Shown: positions 17,232 through 62,700 of the stretch, in pieces
Layout of the letters: the number at the start of each line of letters is the position of its first letter
How positions within the stretch are numbered: position 1 is the first letter of the stretch
Notes under the pieces: model-generated
The model's input: only the letters and a program-made list of their open reading frames with translations
Database searches by the model: none
What the model was told of the DNA's origin: nothing
Assembly: GCF_037392515.1 (NCBI RefSeq)
Contig: NC_090280.1
Location: 27,533,118-27,597,117 of the forward strand
Direction of reading: 5' to 3'
Origin: Haliotis asinina
Lineage: Eukaryota; Mollusca; Gastropoda; Lepetellida; Haliotidae
Length of the DNA: 64,000 nucleotides
Made by a program: the position numbers and the translations under genes

Positions 17232-17243
17232 TGTGTGTATTTC
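17232..17243. other. Left 12-bp direct repeat bordering the array
   Basis: The word 'tgtgtgtatttc' recurs exactly at 20047-20058, just outside the right end of the array. This is the layout of a target-site duplication; the empty site would read 'ttcacg', the 12-mer, then 'gccttcg'. Confidence 0.85.
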
Positions 17244-18766
17244 AACATATGTCATATTTGGGATTTCACTTTCTTAGTAAAGTACAAATTCTAGTACTTT
17301 TTTCGGTTGAGTCCCATCCGGGATTCGAACCCGCACCCTCAGAGTCAGGCACCTAATCGCCAGCACACAAAGTCAGCCGCCTAGCCCGCTCAGCCACCGC
17401 GACTTCCACAAAAATGAAAGTCGGACAACTGGTAGTCTAGACTGCGTACTTTGTGTACCCCTCTGATGAGTGTAAATTGGCACGGCTCCCACGGCCGAAA
17501 GCTATGATTACACGATGCCATTTAGAAAGTGGTCACATGCAACATATGTCATATTTGGGATTTCACTTTCTTAGTAAAGTACAAATTCTAGTACTTTTTT
17601 CGGTTGAGTCCCATCCGGGATTCGAACCCGCACCCTCAGAGTCAGGCACCTAATCGCCAGCACACAAAGTCAGCCGCCTAGCCCGCTCAGCCACCGCGAC
17701 TTCCACAAAAATGAAAGTCGGACAACTGGTAGTCTAGACTGCGTACTTTGTGTACCCCTCTGATGAGTGTAAATTGGCACGGCTCCCACGGCCGAAAGCT
17801 ATGATTACACGATGCCATTTAGAAAGTGGTCACATGCAACATATGTCATATTTGGGATTTCACTTTCTTAGTAAAGTACAAATTCTAGTACTTTTTTCGG
17901 TTGAGTCCCATCCGGGATTCGAACCCGCACCCTCAGAGTCAGGCACCTAATCGCCAGCACACAAAGTCAGCCGCCTAGCCCGCTCAGCCACCGCGACTTC
18001 CACAAAAATGAAAGTCGGACAACTGGTAGTCTAGACTGCGTACTTTGTGTACCCCTCTGATGAGTGTAAATTGGCACGGCTCCCACGGCCGAAAGCTATG
18101 ATTACACGATGCCATTTAGAAAGTGGTCACATGCAACATATGTCATATTTGGGATTTCACTTTCTTAGTAAAGTACAAATTCTAGTACTTTTTTCGGTTG
18201 AGTCCCATCCGGGATTCGAACCCGCACCCTCAGAGTCAGGCACCTAATCGCCAGCACACAAAGTCAGCCGCCTAGCCCGCTCAGCCACCGCGACTTCCAC
18301 AAAAATGAAAGTCGGACAACTGGTAGTCTAGACTGCGTACTTTGTGTACCCCTCTGATGAGTGTAAATTGGCACGGCTCCCACGGCCGAAAGCTATGATT
18401 ACACGATGCCATTTAGAAAGTGGTCACATGCAACATATGTCATATTCGGGATTTCACTTTCTTAGTAAAGTACAAATTCTAGTACTTTTTTCGGTTGAGT
18501 CCCATCCGGGATTCGAACCCGCACCCTCAGAGTCAGGCACCTAATCGCCAGCACACAAAGTCAGCCGCCTAGCCCGCTCAGCCACCGCGACTTCCACAAA
18601 AATGAAAGTCGGACAACTGGTAGTCTAGACTGCGTACTTTGTGTACCCCTCTGATGAGTGTAAATTGGCACGGCTCCCACGGCCGAAAGCTATGATTACA
18701 CGATGCCATTTAGAAAGTGGTCACATGCAACATATGTCATATTTGGGATTTCACTTTCTTAGTAAA
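17244..18766. repeat. Left arm: five direct 297-bp units plus partial
   Basis: Unit starts at 17243, 17540, 17837, 18134, 18431 and 18728 (partial). Copies are identical by eye except for one T-to-C change at 18447. Such homogeneity means very recent amplification or ongoing conversion. Confidence 0.95.
17310..18592 (-). pseudogene. Five tRNA-like sequences on the minus strand
   Basis: Copies at 17310-17404, 17607-17701, 17904-17998, 18201-18295 and 18498-18592, each 95 nt. On the minus strand each has an A box TGGCTGAGCGGG (full match to TRGCNNAGYNGG) and a B box GGTTCGAATCC. It has a class II-type variable arm (ACTC-TGA-GGGT) and closing AGTC/GACT ends. The acceptor and T stems carry mismatches, and the anticodon stem expected from serine/leucine tRNAs does not pair. 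I therefore call them tRNA-derived heads, not working tRNA genes. Confidence 0.8.
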
Positions 18767-18784
18767 AAGTACTAGAATTTGTAC

Positions 18785-20046
18785 TTTACTAAGAAAGTGA
18801 AATCCCAAATATGACATATGTTGCATGTGACCACTTTCTAAATGGCATCGTGTAATCATAGCTTTCGGCCGTGGGAGCCGTGCCAATTTACACTCATCAG
18901 AGGGGTACACAAAGTACGCAGTCTAGACTACCAGTTGTCCGACTTTCATTTTTGTGGAAGTCGCGGTGGCTGAGCGGGCTAGGCGGCTGACTTTGTGTGC
19001 TGGCGATTAGGTGCCTGACTCTGAGGGTGCGGGTTCGAATCCCGGATGGGACTCAACCGAAAAAAGTACTAGAATTTGTACTTTACTAAGAAAGTGAAAT
19101 CCCAAATATGACATATGTTGCATGTGACCACTTTCTAAATGGCATCGTGTAATCATAGCTTTCGGCCGTGGGAGCCGTGCCAATTTACACTCATCAGAGG
19201 GGTACACAAAGTACGCAGTCTAGACTACCAGTTGTCCGACTTTCATTTTTGTGGAAGTCGCGGTGGCTGAGCGGGCTAGGCGGCTGACTTTGTGTGCTGG
19301 CGATTAGGTGCCTGACTCTGAGGGTGCGGGTTCGAATCCCGGATGGGACTCAACCGAAAAAAGTACTAGAATTTGTACTTTACTAAGAAAGTGAAATCCC
19401 AAATATGACATATGTTGCATGTGACCACTTTCTAAATGGCATCGTGTAATCATAGCTTTCGGCCGTGGGAGCCGTGCCAATTTACACTCATCAGAGGGGT
19501 ACACAAAGTACGCAGTCTAGACTACCAGTTGTCCGACTTTCATTTTTGTGGAAGTCGCGGTGGCTGAGCGGGCTAGGCGGCTGACTTTGTGTGCTGGCGA
19601 TTAGGTGCCTGACTCTGAGGGTGCGGGTTCGAATCCCGGATGGGACTCAACCGAAAAAAGTACTAGAATTTGTACTTTACTAAGAAAGTGAAATCCCAAA
19701 TATGACATATGTTGCATGTGACCACTTTCTAAATGGCATCGTGTAATCATAGCTTTCGGCCGTGGGAGCCGTGCCAATTTACACTCATCAGAGGGGTACA
19801 CAAAGTACGCAGTCTAGACTACCAGTTGTCCGACTTTCATTTTTGTGGAAGTCGCGGTGGCTGAGCGGGCTAGGCGGCTGACTTTGTGTGCTGGCGATTA
19901 GGTGCCTGACTCTGAGGGTGCGGGTTCGAATCCCGGATGGGACTCAACCGAAAAAAGTACTAGAATTTGTACTTTACTAAGAAAGTGAAATCCCAAATAT
20001 GACATATGTTGCATGTGACCACTTTCTAAATGGCATCGTGTAATCA
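18785..20046. repeat. Right arm: four inverted 297-bp units plus partials
   Basis: Unit boundaries at 18823, 19120, 19417, 19714 and 20011, each the reverse complement of the left-arm unit. No difference among the four copies is visible. Confidence 0.95.
18959..19944 (+). pseudogene. Four tRNA-like sequences on the plus strand
   Basis: Copies at 18959-19053, 19256-19350, 19553-19647 and 19850-19944, mirror images of the left-arm set. Downstream of each head the first run of four or more T's is the TTTTT at unit position just before the next head (for example 19246-19250). A Pol III transcript would therefore span about 290 nt and end before the next copy. Confidence 0.8.
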
Positions 20047-20058
20047 TGTGTGTATTTC
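20047..20058. other. Right 12-bp direct repeat bordering the array
   Basis: Exact copy of 17232-17243, in the same orientation, immediately after the last partial unit ('..gtgtaatca'). Confidence 0.85.
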
Positions 20059-28118: not shown

Positions 28119-29000
28119 GCTGTCATCATCATCATCACATTATCAGCACTAACATCATCCAATCTTCTATATCATCATCGTCGTCGCCGTCGTCGTCACC
28201 ACCACTACACCATCATCTTCATCATCATCGTCGTCGTCACCACCACCACACCATCATCTTCATCATCATCGTCGTCGTCACCACCACCACCACACCATCA
28301 TCTTCATCATCATCGTCGTCGTCACCACCACCACCATTATCTTCATCATCGTCGTCGTCGTCACCACCACCACCACCATCATCTTCATCATCATCGTCGT
28401 CGTCACCACCACCACCATTATCTTCATCATCATCGTCGTCACCACCACCACACCATCATCTTCATCATCATCGTCGTCGTCACCACCACCACCACCACCA
28501 CCATTATCTTCATCATCGTCGTCGTCACCACCACCACCACCATCATCATCTTCATCATCATCGTCGTCGTCACCACCACCACCACCACCACCACCATTAT
28601 CTTCATCATCGTCGTCGTCACCACCACCACACCATCATCTTCATCATCATCGTCGTCGTCACCACCACCACCATCATCATCATCTTCATCATCATCGTCG
28701 TCGTCACCACCACCATCATCATCTTCATCATCGTCGTCGTCGTCACCACCACCACCATCATCTTCATCATCATCGTCGTCGTCACCACCACCACCACCAT
28801 CATCATCTTCATCATCATCGTCGTCGTCACCACCACCACCATCATCATCTTCATCATCATCGTCGTCGTCACCACCACCACCACCATCATCATCTTCATC
28901 ATCGTCGTCGTCGTCACCACCACCACCACATCATCATCTTCATCATCATCGTCGTCGTCACCACCACCACCACCATCATCATCTTCATCATCGTCATTGC
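28119..29000. repeat. Compound trinucleotide array (CAT/CGT/CAC), about 880 bp
   Basis: Higher-order copies of roughly 45-60 bp, each a run of ATC units, then (GTC)n, then (ACC)n with variable numbers. The absence of stops gives open frames up to 344 codons (His, Ser/Pro, Ile/Val, Asp/Gly tracts). The frame composition is dictated entirely by the repeat, so I do not call a gene. Confidence 0.97.
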
Positions 29001-51307: not shown

Positions 51308-51631
51308 ACCCGTGAAGGTCCCGGGGTAGAATAGGCCTTCAGCAACCCATGCTTGCCATAAAAGTGAGTGAGTGAGTTTAGTTTTACGCCGCACTCAGCA
51401 ATATTACAGCTATATGGCGGCGGTCTGTAAATAATCGAGTCTGGACCAGACAATCCAGTGATCAACAACATGAGCATCGATCTGCGCAATTGGGAACCGA
51501 TGACACGCGTCAACCAAGTCAGCGAACCTGACCACCCGATCCCGTTAGTCGCCTCTTACGACAAGCTGAGTCGCCTTTTATGGCAAGCATGGGTTGCTGA
51601 AGGCCTATTCTACCCCGGGACCTTCACGGGT
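51308..51631 (-). mobile_element. Family B SINE framed by 56-bp perfect inverted repeats
   Basis: 51308-51363 is the family B 5' end in + orientation ('acccgtgaaggtcccggggt'). 51364-51631 is a nearly complete family B copy in minus orientation ending 'cccgggaccttcacgggt'. The first 56 bp are the exact reverse complement of the last 56 bp (51576-51631). Confidence 0.9.
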
Positions 51632-51862
51632 CCTTGCCATAAAAGGCGACTCAGCTTGTCGTAAGAGGCGACTAACGGGATCGGGTGGTCAGACTAGCTG
51701 ACTTGGTTGACACATGTCATCGGTTCCCCATTGCGCAGATCGATGCTCATGTTGTTGATCACTGGATTGTCTGGTCCAGACTCGATTATTTACAGACCGT
51801 CGCCATATAGCTGGAATATTGCTAAGTGCGACGTAAAACTAAACTCACTCACTCATCATTTT
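51632..51862 (+). mobile_element. Second family B copy, inverted against the first
   Basis: Runs from 'cttgccataaaaggcgactc' through 'gatgctcatgttgttgatca' and 'acagaccgtcgccatatagc' to tail 'aaactaaactcactcactca'. It is highly similar to the reverse complement of 51364-51590, so the two form a long foldback. Confidence 0.9.
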
Positions 51863-59784: not shown

Positions 59785-62700
59785 GTGAGTAGGAATCCCT
59801 TTGCACAAGCGGTCACAATTCTTGTCATGATCTATGCAATACTTGATACACGTGTTCAGGTCCAGTCATGTGGAAATGTTAGAAATATATCAGAGGAGGT
59901 TCTGTAGGAATGTATGGTCAAGGATGCATGTTCATAGTGGCTGTTTCATAGGCGAATCCCCTCCTTTGTCCTGAAGGTTTATGAAACGACTGTTGAAACT
60001 CTCGCGAAAATGAAGTGTGCACCCCGCCCCCTCAGAGAATCATAGCAACTGTAAGTTCAAAGTTAAAGAGTAGAGTATTATCCTCCACATATTATGAACC
60101 CATTTCAATCCACACAGGTCCACTGGTTAGTGCCCTGGCCTCAAAATATGGTTGTCGGAAGGTGACCATCCTCGGCAGCCTCATCGCAACGTCAGCCTTC
60201 CTGCTCAGCACCCAAGCCAGCAGTATTCAGATGATGGTCGTAACACTCGGAATCATGGGAGGTAGGTTGGTTGTCTGGGTAGGTTCCAAATGGAGGATTC
60301 AGAATATTTTAAGATGTCTCCACCATGGTATTTCCCTTTCAGAACATATTGAATGAAATCAATAATTTGAAGCAGAGCTCGACAGTTTGCATTGCATGTC
60401 TTTGTTTGAAATAACACATGAAGAATTTTCTTATTAATATATGTTTGATTTGCAAATTTTGCTCAGTCTCGTCTTTGATGGAAGATAAAGTTTTGTGGTT
60501 TCTAATCAGCTCCATCAGAGGCTATTCAAGATGACGGGGAATTTTATCATGTGATGGATAGCATTATCAATATGATGCATCAGTGCAATATATTTGCAAT
60601 ATATTATCAAGTTGGAACAACTTGCAGTAAAATGTTTCTATCGGGCCAAAGTCTATGCTTAAAAAACATTTCATTCAGTTCCCCAAAACTTTAGATCATG
60701 TTTCCATTTGTGTTTATGTAAACCAACATGAAATTAACAGGACACTTCCTTCATGTCAGTGTATGACTTCCTAAGCTAAATAAATAAATCTATGTGTGTT
60801 TCATTTCAATTTTTTAAGATTGAAAGTTTCAATATTGTCTTTGTCTGTTTCCACATTTGTTAATATCATATACGTGTATTACAAGCAAGATGTCTTAATA
60901 CACAAAATCACTTCTAACATATGACATCTGTGTCATACACGCAGAGAATAATATACCATTTTAAAAAAGTAGCAGATATTGAATTTAAAAGATTGATAAA
61001 ATACAAATGATGAAGCCCAGGAGGAAACAAATAATGAGGAGAAATTAGGGGAAAATGTGACAATTTATTCCATTCCTTTGGAAATGTTTCATCTCTATAC
61101 TTTTTCTCATATGTATTGACATTGGCTAGTGGTATACCGACAAAATCTAACATCCCCTACGTTTTAATGGTATTTATGTATATATTCACTTACAACCCAT
61201 AAATCACTGTTTGTGTTGCAGGTATTGGGTTTGGCATGATTTACCTCCCAGCTATTGTGACCGTTGGCTTCTGGTTTGAGAAGAAGCGTGCATTTGCAAC
61301 AGGTATAGCAGTGTGTGGATCTGGCGTTGGAACGTCCATCTTTGCACCGTTTGTCAACTACCTTGTTGAAGAGTATCGTTGGCAGGGTGGACTCACCATC
61401 CTGGCAGGAGTTATCTTAAACTGTGTCGTGTGTGGGGCACTATTCAGACCTCTCGACAAAACTCCTCAGAGAATTCCCCGCAGGATGGTTGAGATTCAGC
61501 GAGGATCGATCATGAAAGCCCTGATTGAGGAAAAGAAGCGACAGAGAACAATCTCCAATGGATCTTTGGATAACTGTATTATTACTAAAGACAACCGCCT
61601 CATCAAGATCGACCCCTCGTTCTTCGAGGCAAAGCGGAACAACTCGTTTATTGCTAGGTTTAAGGAGTCACTAGGTTTCAGCACGAAGAGTTTGGACAAG
61701 AGTAAGCAGAGCCTGGTTATTCCCAGTATTAAGATTGACCACCATGTGTCTAATGGCAACTGTGCTGGCTCCCAGCCTCTCAGCCCCATCTACAGACCCA
61801 GTGCCAAACACACGTCTCAGTCTTCCCTGTCCACAAGCAGCGACAGCGGCTGTAACATGACCCCGGAGTTCATCCTCACTGCCAAGAGCTGTGACATCAT
61901 CCCAGGGGCAGTGCGGTCTTCACAAGACTTGGAATTAAATTCATGCACGCAGAGCATGAAATCTGTGAACTGTCCTGCGATGGGAGCAAGTGTGATAAGT
62001 ATCCAGGTCGTCCCGACCCCACCAACCACACGGTCACGTCATCGAGCGTATAGGTCCTCCTCGTCACGCTCCATTGCATATGCGAGTTCAGGGAACATGC
62101 ACCCTTCGAGTATTGTGTCGGGGAGCGTCATGAGCATACCCCAGTATAGTGTGCAGACTATCGATCAGTACGAGGAGAAGCAGTCCACCTTGAAGAAAAT
62201 CTTCTATCTTCTCAAGGAGATGTTTGATTTCCATTTGCTGAAGAGTCCAATGTTTGCACTCCTAGTGTTTGCCAGTATTCTCAGCATGTTGGGTAAGTAC
62301 TCGTTTTATCTCCTACTGTATATTCCGTCATGTTGTACCTCCTCTGTGGTGTAGTAGTTATAGTGTCAGCCTGGAGAGCAGAAGGTCACAGGTTCAATCC
62401 CTGGACGAGTCAGACCAAAATACCGAAAGATTCATCATACCAAAATATGGTACTTGTTGGTCCCTGCTTGGAGCTTGGCATTAATGGGTACAACAAGGAC
62501 TGGTTGTCTTGGAGTCAGTATGTGTCTGAGCAGGGTATTCATGCTTAAATGTGGCATGTTTCTCAGTGAGCTAGCACTGTAAAACTAGCTATAGTCTGGG
62601 TTAGAACAAACTGTCACACATACCATTGCACGTCATCATGTGAGCAAAATTTACCCCCATTTCACCTCCCGATTCATGTTATTTCTCAGATGACTGGGAG

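Follow-up and report, generated by a model that had tools for sequence, protein, structure and literature searches.

A stretch of 64,000 nucleotides from the genome of the gastropod Haliotis asinina (contig NC_090280.1, positions 27,533,118 to 27,597,117; the window, in whose own numbering positions are given below) carries at 17232-20058 a 2.8-kb block in which a tRNA-like unit of 297 bp follows itself for 5.13 antisense laps and then for 4.32 sense laps. We consider it probable, at roughly seven chances in ten, that this block is one recent copy of a family of non-autonomous tRNA-derived retroposons synthesised from both strands of the cut target, the enzyme most likely being that of a Penelope-like element (PLE). 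What can be read in the sequence are fixed but asymmetric ends, a head-to-head order of the arms, target-site duplications, microhomology with the target, variants that are mostly constant from lap to lap and a PLE end motif beside one of two sites, here called A and B, at which the copies begin; from these we infer an RNA circle, the activity of a promoter for RNA polymerase III (Pol III) and the use of the PLE enzyme. The fuller picture, to which we give even odds, would be that of an element resembling short interspersed elements (SINEs) but living off PLEs, whose small circular Pol III RNA would be reverse transcribed over successive (rolling) laps starting on each strand of a single cut, each complete insertion then being a tandem palindrome that has one of its ends at A and the other at B.

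The palindrome of tandem units between 12-bp direct repeats, which an earlier note had described from the letters of this stretch, was confirmed. The 12-mer TGTGTGTATTTC occurs exactly twice within the window, once at each border of the block (Table 1), and as a chance control none of 55,163 equally spaced position pairs elsewhere in the window agrees over 8 bp. At each border one base of the repeat also belongs to the arm, and counted in this way the antisense left arm extends over 17243-18766 and the sense right arm over 18764-20047, the AAA at 18764-18766 being common to both. All laps are identical save one T>C at 18447, and the note too had counted one mismatch between the arms; the length of the inverted arms is 1,263 nt around a centre of 18 nt, instead of the 1,262 bp given there. 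When phase 1 is set to the first base of the tRNA-like domain, the left outer end of the block lies at phase 160/161 and the right one at 196/197, so that the block is without true terminal inverted repeats. At the inversion phase 123 is joined to phase 102, flanking or inside a hairpin at phases 104-125, and the centre of the block is therefore this hairpin of the unit and not a unit border. A snap-back of one complementary DNA (cDNA) at the centre hairpin was dropped, the left arm being longer than the right and ending at another phase.

The unit has stops in all six frames and no open frame, and thus no encoded telomerase-like reverse transcriptase (RT) of the kind that an autonomous PLE carries, usually along with a GIY-YIG endonuclease. 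Its head is a tRNA-like putative Pol III promoter, detected by ARAGORN in five minus-strand and four plus-strand units of the block and holding sequences that we take to be A- and B-box-like, while the best that Rfam offers for the unit is tRNA-Sec at 18.2 bits, under the cut-off of 47. Folded as a circle, the sense unit reaches -107.4 kcal/mol with a z of -5.0, and the antisense unit a z of -3.3, none of 300 shuffles being as good in either case. In this fold phases 282-287 are able to pair with 292-297, so that the T-run (287-291) and the putative start (292) would sit side by side. A scan for the hammerhead core found none on either strand of the unit and reported none in the PLE pieces L047, L048 and L065, whereas it did detect one in the PLE-like DNA of locus L018. 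With L018 as the positive control, the antisense CTGATGAG...GAAA of the unit, which resembles a hammerhead, was rejected since no stem II forms. Rfam gave no match at gathering score on the whole window, and its microRNA-precursor matches are all under their cut-offs, the strongest falling on the centre of the palindrome. Exact-pattern scans of viral and genome contig collections for pieces of the unit returned 0 matches, and a 70-aa chance frame of the unit, used as the query against proteins, returned no candidate.

The earlier note had asked whether other arrays of this unit in the same genome are palindromic and flanked by short duplications, and many of those read are. In the 1.14 Gb of the genome a first search gave 58 matches, with 39 of 213 candidates scored, and a second gave 108 matches, with 40 of 211 scored; since only part of the candidates was scored in both, the copy number of the unit is a lower bound. 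The loci read amount to 51 beyond the window, namely 38 from the first search and 13 new dispersed ones from the second, which together with the window copy, and after removal of six segmental duplicates (L035, L036, L041, L044, L045, L046), make 46 distinct scored copies. Two arms are present in 28 of the 46, and in all 28 the arms stand head to head with the sense strand reading outwards. In 23 of these 28 one outer end falls at site A (phases 158-170) and the other at site B (190-205), while the combinations A/A and B/B occur in none; the two sites, at phases of about 164 and 197, are 33 nt apart. Exact target duplications of at least 9 bp flank 22 of the 28 two-armed copies, against 0.8% of 2000 random pairs treated with a closely similar finder. 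The one-armed copies (n=18) end at A in 16 cases and at B in 2, and one that the script scored as one-armed, L017, shows on reading a 15-nt B arm and a 14-bp duplication. Finally, in 18 copies with a duplication (16 two-armed and 2 one-armed, the window included) the mean microhomology with the target is 2.5 nt at A, where 0.33 is expected, and 1.3 nt at B, where 0.32 is expected; site A reaches phase 164 in 16 of these and phase 161 in two, L009 and the window copy. A G replaces T at phase 165 in the window copy and in L009, and these two and a giant array on C2 end at 161 and not 164 at site A, a possible shift of this start site in a subfamily.

Empty sites were found in part. The target of L024 has an uninterrupted paralogous relative of 88.9% identity in which the target sequence is single, and the target of the giant array has a weaker one at 72.5%. 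For the window copy, for which the note had suggested looking for such an allele or relative, no match in the genome crosses the junction of the joined flanks, the three matches being its own two flanks and one place that matches the right flank only. For L022, the candidates considered as paralogous empty sites (in comparisons with L051 and L018, 68%) diverged too much at the junction and were not counted.

The giant array, at C2:31317291-31334542, is a palindrome of about 17.2 kb, which by length holds about 45 antisense and 13 sense laps, its ends and centre having been read and its middle inferred from match positions. Its outer ends lie at phases 161 and about 196, and it is flanked by the 10-bp duplication CAGATTTTTC. 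One variant unit was found three times in its long arm, which makes a later expansion of this array by recombination likely.

The events that we propose are as follows. A Pol III-type RNA of about 297 nt would begin near phase 292 and terminate within the T-run at 287-291; its two ends would pair together and the RNA would probably be closed into a circle. The target would be cut by an endonuclease in a staggered manner that leaves 3' overhangs of about 9-17 nt, and each overhang would anneal through a few bases to site A (~164) or site B (~197) on the RNA and prime reverse transcription. The two cDNAs would then grow towards each other, sometimes for several laps, and would stop at the 5' end of the RNA or at structured spots, and their junction would be made through a short overlap or with a few additional bases. 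This would produce a tandem palindrome, its arms head to head, between two copies of the target sequence. The resident Penelope-like retrotransposons would most likely provide the enzyme.

The inner (5') ends of the arms are not spread evenly over the unit. Three zones, picked after looking, hold more of the 74 inner ends than expected: phases 289-2, with 15 against 2.7, a zone that the query of the second batch may favour because it starts at phase 1; phases 121-130, at the foot of the hairpin, with 11 against 2.5; and phases 43-49, with 7 against 1.7. The first of these looks as if reverse transcription had reached the 5' end of the RNA just past the T-run. The A and B arms span from 0.18 to 5.13 laps, and more than one lap is covered by 24 of the 44 arms at A and by 7 of the 25 at B, in a selection by score that favours long arms. 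Where the arms meet, 10 of the 28 inversion points overlap by at least one base, 2 are flush and 16 hold 1-23 extra bases; the longest overlap, of 55 bases in L024, lies within the hairpin region.

The laps themselves bear on the template. A run of four to six T is a stop for Pol III, and at the lap joints the T-run counts 2, 4, 5 or 6 T in different copies and is constant in 35 of 35 joints of the nine copies that have several. The same holds for base variants: three are present in 4/4 laps of L012, one is present in 6/6 laps of L020, and in L011 16T and 217T occur in 3/3 laps of arm A and neither occurs in arm B. From variants and joints that are constant within copies and differ between them, the template would appear to have been monomeric and probably circular, the two arms coming sometimes from two RNA molecules. 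A nested variant of this explanation keeps the same priming from two strands and dispenses with the circle, the tandem laps deriving from linear multimers, such as read-through of an array like that on C2, or from template jumping end to end. We regard it as possible, though clearly the lesser option. It draws on the many units of the C2 array that are identical to the window unit across the 111-201 nt searched, on the many arms that stop at 289-2, as they would on a linear RNA, and on the variants confined to some laps in L015 and L011. It accords less well with the T4-T6 run that stands at the lap joint of all copies scored except L024, with joints that are constant inside a copy and change from one copy to another, and with L011, where the two arms are unlike at phases 16 and 217 and arm A is uniform there in its three laps.

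As regards the enzyme, 17 matches to the GIY-YIG domain exceed the cut-off in the genome, and two of these (E 1.7e-6 and 8.9e-7) are adjoined by RT-like frames in which an RT motif is presumably present. Relatives of one of these frames have open frames of up to 797 aa, three pairs of RT relatives lie on opposite strands and read outwards, with starts 0.7-2.2 kb apart, and a part of the frame of L065, one 797-aa relative, is repeated upstream of it in inverted orientation at 99.6% identity. At the start of L065 the sequence TCACTTCTAAATGACATTCAAAGAC is present. The motif TCACTTCTAAATGNCNTTCAAAGAC, with at most one mismatch, has 2154 sites in the genome, against 0 for the reversed control. Six sites taken from the first ten plus-strand ones listed were read (L066-L071), and all six diverge directly after ...TTCAAAGACTT, and L018 and L028 do so directly after ...TTCAAAGACT, while L065 and L024 continue as PLE sequence past the motif. 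A similar sequence, CACTTTCTAAATGGCAT (phases 170-186), stands in the segment of the unit between A and B, 10-12 nt before B, its PLE counterpart having a distance of 8-10 nt. The match extends over 17 columns with one gap and one mismatch, is equalled by 9 and 5 of 5000 shuffles, and is reached in 96 of 40,000 random 33-nt flank stretches, a pool that includes genuine PLE ends. The unit gave no match to two older PLE copies. Among the PLE sequences themselves, the minus strand of L018 at 100-420 combines a PLE-like end with a minimal hammerhead-like core, CTGATGA...GAAAC, on which Rfam is silent even at E 5, and the sequence of L068 past the PLE end motif resembles the stretch of L018 upstream of the motif (GAAGTTG.TATCCATAAA), as if one PLE end abutted another PLE repeat.

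A further alternative is twin priming driven by a long interspersed element (LINE), with a long tandem RNA in linear form as the template and a result like that known from L1 copies with an inverted 5' part; we consider it improbable. Twin priming predicts inversion, a target duplication and microhomologies both at the ends and at the inversion junction, according to the available part of PMC2912911, and the ten overlapping junctions and the dispersed SINE-like repeats present in the window agree with it. In the L1 type, however, one start lies at the 3' end of the RNA and the second is internal and should vary, whereas here both are internal and fixed in 23 of the 28 two-armed copies; in the A/B copies neither arm begins at the T-run end of the unit, and the end motif that adjoins site B is that of a PLE.

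The earlier note had itself put forward, as one model, the capture at a staggered break of a ready-made inverted tandem DNA, such as a rolling-circle or foldback product. A single insertion, and probably the tandem (rolling) synthesis, stand, and one block with a target duplication and a centre falling on a hairpin would suit the capture as well. The ready-made block, on the other hand, is not supported, because the ends at A and B are fixed but different, microhomology exceeds chance at both ends and the inversion points vary across copies, all of which points to synthesis in place from both cut strands; the A and B arms, moreover, differ widely in their number of laps. Very little weight is therefore left to it. 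Palindromes with a short centre are a known type of assembly or read error, and the lap number rests on an assembly without reads, but antisense sequence meets the left border and sense sequence the right one, and both flanks carry the 12-mer, so that a turn-around must lie between them whatever the number of laps, and all 28 two-armed copies are laid out in this way; an artefact is for this reason more unlikely still. Last and least probable, a foldback DNA transposon with terminal inverted repeats made of tandem units, which would account for long inverted arms and a target duplication, was dropped for its unequal ends, the outer termini being different unit positions that do not match.

Several observations weigh against synthesis from both cut strands by a PLE enzyme on a circular RNA, and they are collected here. 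The copies were chosen by search score, with the bias towards long arms already mentioned; 5 of the 28 two-armed copies have one end off the two sites (at 36, 126, 70, 128 and 80), four of them without a duplication, and a duplication of at least 9 bp is present in just 3 of the 18 one-armed copies. One circle does not explain the variants restricted to some laps, two in L015 (144 and 229) and one in L011 (72), and single mixed positions occur in L024, L026 and L043. Linear multimers like the window unit could come from the giant C2 array, a possible source for the window copy. Both the RNA circle and the Pol III transcription are read from DNA, and the covariation of the fold among 26 aligned copies is not above the control, three pairs having changed on both sides and 60 of 500 shuffles scoring as high. 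On the side of the enzyme, the assignment of the PLE RT is weak, since RVT_1 was matched only with E values of 0.02 and 0.13 and the latter of the two pieces matches Nucleoporin_N better, at E 0.01, and the PLE pieces L047, L048 and L065 have no long sequence in common with the unit. The motif match beside B is short and was noticed post hoc, and is for this reason supportive and not proof, while the sequence before site A has no significant match to the PLE motif, 3084 and 823 of 5000 shuffles being as good, and a repeated PLE-like motif at that place was dropped. Furthermore, the sole PLE tested in vitro begins reverse transcription at a site without homology to the DNA that is cut (PMC11167929), in contrast to the clear microhomology seen here.

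According to the available part of PMC3846280, PLEs have their repeats head to head, duplicate 8-10 bp of the target and may carry a tail of 31 bp; for a purified PLE of Anolis, cleavage and extension of both strands are reported, with internal starts at two sites one tail of 30-40 bp apart (PMC11167929). The statement of the earlier note that it knew of no named element with such a design calls for correction, since PLEs possess the head-to-head layout with a tail. The element studied here works like a PLE, with which it shares head-to-head repeats, short target duplications, two starts 30-40 nt apart (here 33), an internal start and the extension of both strands (PMC11167929; PMC3846280, in the part available); it differs in being tRNA-derived, non-coding and copied in laps, that is, in a unit without open reading frame or hammerhead core, a tRNA-like head, arms of many laps and clear microhomology at the ends. 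With the retrozymes of metazoans that lack long terminal repeats (non-LTR) it has in common a tandem unit of 170-400 nt, a highly self-paired RNA, target duplications and a small circle as the proposed template of reverse transcription (PMC7229834; PMC7761336, in its available part). Retrozymes, however, are defined by a type I hammerhead ribozyme, of which none was found in the unit, and the word 'inverted' does not occur in the main text of PMC7229834; with no protein and no hammerhead, the element fails both as an autonomous PLE and as a retrozyme. The tRNA-like head, shortness, lack of coding capacity, T-run, dispersal and target duplications are those of tRNA-derived SINEs, in contrast to which the start is not at a 3' tail and the copies are tandem and palindromic and point to a PLE and not to a LINE as the partner. 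Lastly, 5'-inverted L1 copies are similar in that both strands prime on RNA and in their inversion, microhomology and target duplication, as far as the available part of PMC2912911 describes them, but here both start sites are fixed, 33 nt apart, and the template is read for several laps.

Table 1. Features of the palindromic block, in positions of the window.
Feature	Position	Strand	Remark
Left copy of the 12-bp target-site duplication TGTGTGTATTTC	17232..17243	+	two occurrences only in the window
Left arm, antisense laps; outer end = start site A (phase 160/161)	17244..18766	-	5.13 laps including shared base 17243
tRNA-like domain, left arm unit 1	17309..17403	-	ARAGORN
tRNA-like domain, left arm unit 2	17606..17700	-	ARAGORN
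tRNA-like domain, left arm unit 3	17903..17997	-	ARAGORN
tRNA-like domain, left arm unit 4	18200..18294	-	ARAGORN
Sole base differing between laps, T>C on the + strand	18447..18447	.	
tRNA-like domain, left arm unit 5	18497..18591	-	ARAGORN
AAA common to both arms, inversion point	18764..18766	.	
Right arm, sense laps; outer end = start site B (phase 196/197)	18764..20046	+	4.32 laps including shared base 20047
Unit hairpin AAAGTAC-TAGAATTT-GTACTTT, phases 104-125, block centre	18766..18787	+	inner ends of other copies cluster at 121-130
tRNA-like domain, right arm unit 1	18960..19054	+	ARAGORN
tRNA-like domain, right arm unit 2	19257..19351	+	ARAGORN
tRNA-like domain, right arm unit 3	19554..19648	+	ARAGORN
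tRNA-like domain, right arm unit 4	19851..19945	+	ARAGORN
CACTTTCTAAATGGCAT, phases 170-186, like the conserved motif at resident PLE insertion ends	20020..20036	+	10-11 nt before site B
Right copy of the 12-bp target-site duplication	20047..20058	+	

Some insertions of the family have been multiplied by segmental duplication. One old insertion is found on C4 at 13.08, 13.32, 13.58 and 13.83 Mb (L046, L041, L045 and L044), in steps of about 250 kb, and again at C4:44.40 Mb (L040), inside tandem PLE remnants; the C4 unit next to PLE sequence had been considered as a repeat shared with PLEs, which was rejected, as the unit proved to have inserted into a PLE, with segmental duplication accounting for the further copies. 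Another insertion is present three times on C7, at 64.20, 64.33 and 64.34 Mb (L036, L035 and L030). Elsewhere in the window, a 48-bp tandem array and its inverted counterpart, both diverged, surround a tRNA-like SINE fragment (484-709 and 948-1091), with arms of about 119 nt that are 79% complementary, another inverted tandem layout, and a palindrome at 51365-51855, with 223-nt arms that are 96% complementary and a 45-nt loop, consists of a dispersed repeat of which the window contains several copies. At 28123-28997 there is a long array of TCA-rich trinucleotides, and at 59997-62354 there are exons of a gene like those of monocarboxylate transporters, of the major facilitator superfamily (MFS), whose best named relatives are molluscan (Elysia, Mytilus, Pinctada, Lottia).

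The individual parts of this design are known, while their combination was not found described in our literature search, in which neither a SINE mobilised by a PLE nor a palindromic tandem SINE was met with among titles and abstract openings, with few subscription papers covered. SINEs are known as partners of LINEs, and a tRNA-derived element that depends on PLEs would, if true, add another partnership. The unit would then also be a compact natural reporter of PLE activity, in which each copy records both starts, the run of each cDNA and their joining. The finding bears, moreover, on a question raised in the available part of a review of retrozymes, namely that the metazoan retrozyme repeats have no motif that names the element mobilising them (PMC7761336). 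More generally, it suggests a route of retroposition by which kilobase palindromes, one of them now of about 17 kb, are written into an animal genome.

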